Assembly (NCBI RefSeq): GCF_014204525.1
Contig: NZ_JACHLP010000001.1
Location: forward strand, 930,001 to 994,000
DNA from: Roseateles oligotrophus
Lineage (GTDB): Bacteria > Pseudomonadota > Gammaproteobacteria > Burkholderiales > Burkholderiaceae_C
Length of the DNA: 64,000 nt
Direction: 5' to 3'
Positions 33,879 through 34,824 of this stretch are shown in pieces. How positions within the stretch are numbered: the first letter of the stretch is position 1; every line of letters begins with the position of its first letter. The notes below the pieces were generated by a model, which saw only the letters and a program-made list of their open reading frames with translations, was not told where the DNA came from and searched no databases. The translations under genes were made by a program, and so were the position numbers.

Positions 33879-34109
33879 TCAAGATTTGGTCTTGGCTTCG
33901 ACGTCGACGGTATTGCTGTCGCTGGCCTTGTTGGCCGTGACCTGCTGCGCCGGAGCCTCGGGCGCGGCGCTGCCGTCCTTCATGCCGTCCTTGAAACCCT
34001 TGACGGCCGAACCCAGGTCATTGCCGACGTTCTTCAACTTCTTGGTTCCAAACACCAGCACCACGATCACAAGAACGATGAGCCAGTGCCAAATGCTGAA
34101 TGAACCCAT
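33879..34109 (-). CDS. tatA: Sec-independent translocase subunit TatA
   Basis: 76 aa pore-forming subunit. [20 protein letters not shown] is the single membrane helix, then [20 protein letters not shown] is the amphipathic helix. First of the tatABC genes. Upstream, 330 bp separate it from hinT and hold a structured element instead of the usual short gap. Confidence 0.94.
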
Positions 34110-34231
34110 GATTTTTCTCCTACGGTAGATGGTCAGATTCTAGTGGGCCCGCATGACAGTTTTTGCGAAAGAGTCAGGCGGAGCAGACCCGGGCGGCCGC
34201 CCGCAGCCGACGCTTGGAGCGCGCCCCTCAA

Positions 34232-34437
34232 AGGCTGAGAACTTTTGTAGCGAGCGGTCGTCAGGCTAGGCTGAGGTCGGACACAGGAAGTCCTGAGGAC
34301 TTCCTGTGCCTAGCAAAGGCCAAGGCCTCTGGCCTTGGCGGACGGAGCACAGGAACCGGAACGTACTCCCTGTACGTGAGGATTCCGAGCACCGCCCAAC
34401 GACGCCTGACGGCCGCGCAGTAAAAAGTTCTCAGCCT
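34232..34437 (+). ncRNA. candidate structured RNA or small mobile element with nested inverted repeats
   Basis: No ORF is supported here. The ends are inverted: AGGCTGAGAACTTTT (34232-34246) against AAAAGTTCTCAGCCT (34423-34437), 15 bp perfect, continued by CGTCAGGC (34259-34266) against GCCTGACG (34404-34411). Inside lie CACAGGAAGTCC/GGACTTCCTGTG (34282-34308), GCCAAGGCC/GGCCTTGGC (34319-34339) and GTAC/GTAC plus GGAA..TTCC pairings (34352-34386). Read on plus, the order AGGCTGAG, GGCC-loop-GGCC, GGACG, GGAAC, GAGCA recalls the core of IscB-linked HEARO/omega RNAs; this comparison is from memory. A palindrome GGGCGGCCGCCC lies upstream at about 34191-34202. Strand and family are tentative. 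A non-autonomous MITE is the main alternative. Confidence 0.5.
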
Positions 34438-34438
34438 C

Positions 34439-34789
34439 TCAGCCCTTGAGCCAGGGCCGCGGGCCACCCATCACATGCATATGCAGGTGGTAGATCTCCT
34501 GCCCGCCGTCCGGCCCGGTGTTGATGACGGTTCTAAAGCCATTCGTCACACCCAGCTCGCGCATCAGGCGCGGCGCCAGCACAGCCATGCGGCCCAGCAG
34601 CTCGGCATGTTGCTCGCCCACCTCCGCCATCGTCGCGATATGCAGCTTGGGGATGATCAGCACATGGACCGGCGCCCAGGGGTGGATGTCGTGGAAGGCC
34701 AGCAGATGCTCGTCTTCAAAAGCCTTGCGGCTGGGGATCTGGCCCGCGACGATTTTGCAGAACAGGCAGTTGGGATCGGTGGCAGACAT
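34439..34789 (-). CDS. hinT: HIT family nucleotide-binding protein (HinT-like)
   Basis: 116 aa. Starts MSATDPNCLFCKIVAGQIPS, has HPWAPVHVLIIPK, and the histidine triad HLHMHV followed by MGGPRPWLKG. HinT hydrolyses AMP-lysine-type phosphoramidates. Longer open frame upstream is unrelated. It belongs to the his-tat gene row; its stop codon is only a few bases from the structured element that separates it from tatA. Confidence 0.92.
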   Translation of the reverse strand: MSATDPNCLFCKIVAGQIPSRKAFEDEHLLAFHDIHPWAPVHVLIIPKLHIATMAEVGEQHAELLGRMAVLAPRLMRELGVTNGFRTVINTGPDGGQEIYHLHMHVMGGPRPWLKG

Positions 34790-34824
34790 AGTTGTTCCGT
34801 CAGGCAAATGCGCTCGGCCAGGGC

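Follow-up and report, generated by a model that had tools for sequence, protein, structure and literature searches.

A small mobile palindrome without a gene of its own, inserted at the stop codon of hinT in Roseateles oligotrophus

The gap between hinT and tatA in Roseateles oligotrophus spans 329 nt from the hinT stop codon (34439-34441) to the tatA start (34109), in agreement with the enlargement to about 330 bp remarked upon in a preliminary description of this DNA, and raises the question of what the structured stretch occupying it might be. The window, i.e. the whole 64,000-nucleotide stretch that was analyzed, lies in contig C1 of a draft genome of 5.34 Mb. The preliminary description considered a free-standing HEARO/omega-type RNA, with a non-autonomous transposable element as the alternative. 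Our analysis indicates that the structured stretch represents a single member of a family of small, mobile DNA palindromes that carry no gene. It favors the latter alternative, which is backed by the existence of further copies and of empty sites as well as by the inverted ends and a target duplication, and we set the probability that the window element is a non-autonomous, MITE-like mobile element at about 0.86. The features of the locus are as follows.

34231-34438, minus strand (the sense strand, reading away from hinT): the whole element, 208 bp, a member of a genomic repeat family, with ends defined by a 22-copy comparison and by empty sites.
34423-34438, minus strand: 5' (sense) terminal inverted repeat, GAGGCTGAGAACTTTT, defined by repeat search and copy comparison.
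34231-34246, minus strand: 3' (sense) terminal inverted repeat, with its outermost base deviating from the family (A instead of G on the plus strand).
34439-34441, minus strand: first copy of the target duplication, TGA, which is the hinT stop codon.
34228-34230, minus strand: second copy of the target duplication, TGA.
34340-34398, minus strand: conserved core hairpin, GGTGCTCGGAATCCTCACGTAC...GTACGTTCCGGTTCC, defined by pattern search, alignment A1 and covariation.
34268-34337 (limits approximate), minus strand: additional module (about 68 bp, two hairpins) that distinguishes a longer subfamily of 206-208 bp.
34439-34795, minus strand: hinT, with a HIT domain (PF01230, E 3e-23), whose stop codon is the docking site.
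33879-34109, minus strand: tatA, the next gene on the same strand (PF02416, E 1.3e-13).

Read along the minus strand, the locus has the order hinT ...CTGA / GAGGCTGAGAACTTTT TACTGCGCG ... GGTGCTCGGAATCCTCACGTAC..GTACGTTCCGGTTCC ... CGCTCGCTAC AAAAGTTCTCAGCCTT / TGAG, and model R1 matches the window copy at 34439-34296 on this strand with 92.5 bits. The perfect 15-bp terminal inverted repeats described earlier are present at 34232-34246 and 34423-34437; the bounds drawn from them (34232-34437) are corrected here to 34231-34438, with minus as the sense strand. The second, inner 8-bp repeat, AGGCTGAG, does exist (34268-34275), but it is not an independent nested pair, because it complements the right terminal repeat and directly repeats the left one. 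The earlier count of at least three further hairpins is borne out by three located inside the element, of which two are perfect (34282-34294/34296-34308 and 34319-34327/34331-34339) and one is 73% complementary (34352-34366/34372-34386). Folds of the region 34222-34450 lie far beyond shuffled sequences on both the plus strand (-123.9 kcal/mol, z -7.9) and the minus strand (-127.6 kcal/mol, z -9.1), with 0 of 200 shuffles equaling the value in either case. The ORFs of 86 and 68 amino acids that cross the element match no Pfam family at E<=0.001, in keeping with the earlier view that it contains no supported ORF.

The element belongs to a repeat family with 23 clear copies in its own genome, counting the window copy and one cut by a contig end, and a covariance model recovers 24 matches there, including one diverged copy and the contig-end fragment. 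The other full copies in this genome measure 138-140 bp between their inner ends, and across two genomes of the genus the distance between the inner 15-bp ends ranges from 137 to 230 bp. The 68-bp module is missing from the 138-140 bp sister copies and is aligned in 6 copies of the relative G014. Matches were found in 27 of the 58 relatives searched, among them all 17 of the same genus, whereas the hinT-tatA gap itself is empty in 15 of the 15 same-genus relatives in which it was readable (64-117 nt versus 329 nt here; L192 and L193 gave no readable gap). Because the site is empty in all of these, the element most likely reached it after the split from these relatives. Outside chromosomes, the plasmid and phage sets contain 3 records each with matches to an own-genome copy at E<=1e-5. 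The copy number is highest in G014, an assembly that is 79% complete, with 109 end-sequence matches corresponding to about 50 copies; the own genome has 42 such matches, and the 16 remaining relatives have between 0 and 17. This is a recent burst and makes G014 a good hunting ground for an active transposase.

The placement of the copies relative to genes is strongly biased. This was assessed in 54 copies from two genomes of the genus, namely 22 from the own genome and 32 from G014, the latter being those with both ends pairable among the matches listed; the contig-end-cut copy in C5 and one left end in L231 with no right end were left out. In 45 of the 54, the start of the element coincides with the stop of an ORF (80 codons or more) on the same strand, and 2 show the reversed arrangement. 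As 80-codon frames ending at a nearby TGA are common by chance in GC-rich DNA, checks of codon periodicity and Pfam membership were added. With coding-like periodicity required, 39 of 54 copies remain (18/22 own, 21/32 G014), and Pfam recognizes 15 of the 18 docked genes of the own genome and all 10 that were tested of the 21 in G014. The docked genes include those for enolase, delta-aminolevulinic acid dehydratase, glutamate-cysteine ligase and RapZ, as well as hinT. Of the 54 copies, 31 are bordered on the left by the pentamer CTGAG and 32 on the right, and the flanks are best read as a duplication of TGA within a CTGAG target, with the consequence that the host gene retains its stop codon. 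In 6 of the 54 copies the stop lies at -2 and is made partly from the first bases of the element itself. The insertion in the window lies at the hinT stop codon, and the family shows one prevailing orientation, on the same strand behind the upstream gene.

The target sequence alone predicts about a fifth of the copies at stop codons, as against the 72-83% observed. Within the window, 10 CTGAG pentamers coincide with in-frame stops and 37 lie at other noncoding sites, giving an expectation of about 21%, although the gene caller used for this background is rough and overlooked hinT. The binomial probabilities against this expectation are 4e-22 for 45/54 and 2e-15 for 39/54, and those against an assumed 50% are 4e-7 and 7e-4, respectively. 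No long ORF ends at 7 of the 32 copies in G014 and 2 of the 22 in the own genome, and a further 6, counted among the 45, do not pass the coding test; the own-genome copy at C1:235438 is antisense to both of its neighbors.

Beyond the genus, the core pattern was found in at least 119 stretches of named genomes, from the Burkholderiales (Paucibacter and Mitsuaria among them), Xanthomonas, Dyella, Gallionella, Pseudomonas, Aeromonas, the Enterobacterales and the Chlorobi, with the last contributing 12 of 80 core loci among the matches listed. The named genomes constitute a sample, in which L118, at least, shares its assembly with G014. A simple gene caller muddled the neighbor classes, with 24 of 100 copies seemingly inside genes, and was replaced by position-specific counts, periodicity and Pfam; copies near contig edges were dropped, leaving 96 for the position bins and 100 for the neighbor classes. 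A same-strand ORF of at least 120 codons stops inside the 30-nt bin that holds the element start in 68 of 96 copies; the mirrored bin reaches 23 and the remaining sense bins 1-10. Raising the minimum ORF length to 200 codons gives 40 of 86, versus 14 in the mirrored bin and 0-8 in the others. The stops in this sample comprise TGA (31), TAA (28) and TAG (15), and they are most frequent 50-51 nt ahead of the core motif. From 22 docked genes picked, 20 were tested and 19 confirmed by Pfam; those from Chlorobi records include a nitrogenase component and HisG. A model built from 58 diverse copies detects the family in 72 of 398 genomes from the phylum, spread over 45 of 213 genera, with the own genome counted.

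In Escherichia coli, 5375 of 5426 genomes match a Citrobacter copy, at a median of 5 places. One of these matches starts 3 nt after the stop of qseE, ahead of qseG, another lies antisense between pheM and pheS, and a third, on a plasmid, lies between divergent genes. Hence, one of three distinct sites is at a stop and two are not, and these exceptions weigh against a strict rule of stop-docking. On a Comamonas plasmid (L264) a match starts 6 nt past the stop codon of a gene for a 3-hydroxyacyl-CoA dehydrogenase/enoyl-CoA hydratase, a gene type that also precedes several core-only copies.

A set of short-ended copies that retain the core (L053, L056, L057, L058, L059, L061 and L065) was observed behind the same enoyl-CoA hydratase-type gene in six own-genus relatives and one other genus. 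The encoded proteins end in ML(Q/S)TGKPVRN, and Pfam recognizes ECH_1 in all 4 that were checked of these 7 genes. Pfam assigns neighbors of other core-only copies to the periplasmic binding protein and YbaB families, and those of two more to COX3 and Cpn60. The outer stems of the short-ended copies behind the enoyl-CoA hydratase-type gene differ in sequence with pairing mostly kept, a hint that a function has been preserved. That core-only copies recur downstream of the same genes across several genera suggests retention, perhaps function, over passive hopping.

The palindrome itself bears a clear imprint of conserved pairing. In an alignment of 58 sequences, whose structure was derived from that same alignment and in which the search pattern itself had fixed many central letters, 93% of the cells are paired versus 77% in shuffled controls, and covariation is 0.427 versus 0.141, with 0 of 500 shuffles as high in either measure. 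Sliding the partners against each other abolishes this pairing signal; the number of further pair types, one of five covariation measures, is unexceptional (91 of 500 shuffles as high). Compensatory changes between the arms are thus present: in the outer stem formed by the inverted ends, 8 of 8 pairs show both-sided changes, and in helices 1-4 there are 11 one-sided versus 269 two-sided changed cells. RNA stems are expected to show more G-U intermediates. Since one-sided and G-U steps are so few, the palindrome seems to be maintained at the DNA level, for example via a transposase that would require matched ends, or through copying from arm to arm. Homologous cores combined with differing inverted ends occur across many Proteobacteria and in the Chlorobi.

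The exchange of ends is best illustrated by Xanthomonas hortorum, where one end sequence bounds elements of 67, 143-144, 449-454, 530 and 679 bp (eight read). Their flanks are CTAAG on both sides in 3 of 8, CTTAG on both sides in 1 of 8 and unequal in 4 of 8. The loci L218, L220, L222, L223 and L224 have AGAGCGGCTAACAAAAC ends, the same as those of sX9-type elements. Within the larger of these elements lie stretches of 48-49 bp with 76-81% identity to the center of the RU-2/YPAL repeat from Yersinia; 8 such matches are spread over 5 of 6 loci, and the best has an E value of 2.5e-7 against a small database. Two repeat families known from different genera accordingly have terminal repeats in common. 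As to the core itself, homology with YPAL/RU-2 was considered and rejected, given that there was no significant match to 98 cores or to the window copy (best E 0.81).

Taken together, the explanation to which we assign high probability is that of a MITE-like, non-autonomous DNA element that docks on stop codons, is moved in trans, and whose copies are filtered by selection. A DDE-type transposase would act in trans on the ends and would use CTNAG-like targets, each of which carries a stop triplet on at least one strand; selection would then clear insertions that break genes or promoters, leaving the copies on stops. The inverted ends, the TNA duplication inside CTNAG and the lack of an ORF are shared with MITEs of IS5/IS1031-type elements, whose duplication looks alike. 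Usual MITEs keep their ends and vary on the inside. The window family is the reverse, with an inside kept between phyla and ends that vary, and no partner IS was found among the sequences searched. The end-sequence searches revealed no autonomous element with these ends in the draft of the own genome, in the drafts of same-genus relatives or, among the matches listed, in the 79% complete G014. No partner with the other end type was seen in X. hortorum, where two long intervals seem to be elements of this kind that host nested ISs: one (L218) contains a DDE_Tnp_1 transposase and the other (L219) an apparent IS110-type gene, as judged by eye.

At hinT-tatABC, the insertion would have added a very stable hairpin to the intergenic mRNA. 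This may shield the hinT 3' end and may lower tatA expression or separate it from that of hinT; gene order makes the earlier proposed splitting of the hinT-tatA transcript plausible.

The family overlaps with an annotated small RNA. The Rfam entry sX9 (RF02228), a Xanthomonas sRNA, matches the 3' half of this element in the same orientation, whereas the unit described here is a mobile palindrome that exceeds the length of that model. Of 22 own-genome matches, 8 reach or exceed the gathering score of sX9, as do 7 of 20 tested loci, these 7 belonging to Xanthomonas, Dyella, Pseudomonas and Herbaspirillum. With 34.2 bits the window copy falls short of the gathering score of 44, probably due to the interrupting extra module. 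Accordingly, sX9 is the 3' portion of the mobile palindrome. PMC9029176 lists sX9 among the 20 most prevalent bacterial sRNA annotations. In a literature search of partial coverage that reached few subscription journals, sX9 was not described as mobile and was not joined to the E. coli repeats.

This bears on an alternative that we regard as unlikely though deserving of consideration, namely that the element is a portable 3'-UTR RNA device, in which the sense RNA (sX9) functions at mRNA 3' ends and both docking and orientation reflect positive selection. It would account for the predominance of the sense orientation (45 versus 2), for the conservation of the core between Chlorobi and Proteobacteria, for the catalogued status of sX9 as an sRNA, and for the core-only copies that were kept across genera behind the enoyl-CoA hydratase-type, ybaB and periplasmic-binding-protein genes, their outer stems still pairing despite sequence differences. 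However, the scarcity of one-sided G-U intermediates, the lineage-specific burst in G014 and the empty site at hinT argue against it, the asymmetric CTGAG target may by itself dictate orientation, and the invariant letters of the core were partly set by the search pattern. An insertion process that actively seeks stop codons, coupled to mRNA, translation termination or R-loops, is improbable. The use of all three stops across lineages, the sharp peak ahead of the core motif and the excess above the target-sequence background are consistent with such a process. Yet CTGAG flanks are also seen at copies away from stops (L244, L235 and L025) and CTCAG flanks on both sides of L245, so that a DNA pentamer may suffice, and selection can supply the remainder, with the background itself coming from a rough gene caller that missed hinT. 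Still more improbable is a REP/REPIN-type repeat mobilized by RAYT, the HUH tyrosine transposase. One end of the core carries GTAGCGAGC and the core ends are GTAG/CTAC as in REPs, whose GTAG termini are reported to supply stop codons (PMC3733652). REPs and REPINs are RAYT-tied palindromes of 20-40 bp in high copy, whereas the family studied here has a target duplication, long inverted ends, a unit of 138-208 bp and tens rather than hundreds of copies. A free-standing RNA of the HEARO/omega type, its guide adjoining 34232, has in its favor the previously noted order of short motifs and nothing else, and is effectively negligible, as the covariance searches rule it out for the window copy: HEARO (RF02033) has no match at the gathering score in the window, is absent among the nine Rfam matches at E<=10 in 34100-34500 and has 0 matches at E<=1 in the whole genome. 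The likeness is confined to a compact set of hairpins beside a gene, with terminal inverted repeats and a target duplication in place of a covariance match; most sister copies lack the two-hairpin 68-bp module, and no guide position is involved to the left of 34232. The IscB-type domain PF14239 has no match in the genome, and control genomes gave none either. Of the three refuting conditions named in the preliminary description, the lack of a covariance hit holds for HEARO, whereas further copies and compensatory changes do exist.

Returning to the mobile palindrome, a close behavioral counterpart is the YPAL/RU-2 repeat of Yersinia, which was reportedly found by De Gregorio in 2006 to be inserted shortly after stop codons. 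Like the window family, it is a miniature insertion with target duplications and filled and empty sites, although its core sequence is unlike. PMC2229807 describes units of about 168 bp, with target duplications of variable length (3 to 26 bp), that are reported to be expressed together with upstream genes. The RSA/BEE95 enterobacterial intergenic repeats also come into comparison, as E. coli carries relatives of the window family, for which RSA is probably the E. coli name. In a tentative synthesis that we hold to be possible rather than probable, all of these would belong to one ancient family of mobile palindromic cassettes that has so far been recognized piecemeal, comprising sX9, probably RSA, and perhaps the YPAL core via the shared Xanthomonas ends, which would dock on stops across phyla, swap ends to fit local transposases, keep its core and give host genes an oriented 3'-UTR RNA.

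The present results would recast the widely annotated sRNA sX9 as the 3' portion of a mobile element. The family would further offer a clean system of a transposable element living on stop codons without harm to genes, in which one may ask whether insertions become regulators at mRNA 3' ends, while the retention of the inside with exchange of the ends presents a testable puzzle of conservation. Annotation should treat such copies neither as independent sRNA genes nor as HEARO RNAs.

The 68-bp module of the window copy also resembles hairpin-rich repeats elsewhere in the own genome, at L029:2075-2128 (C13) and L030:2077-2146 (C12), with 83% and 76% identity over 58 and 70 nt, respectively, and may have been derived from this second repeat family.
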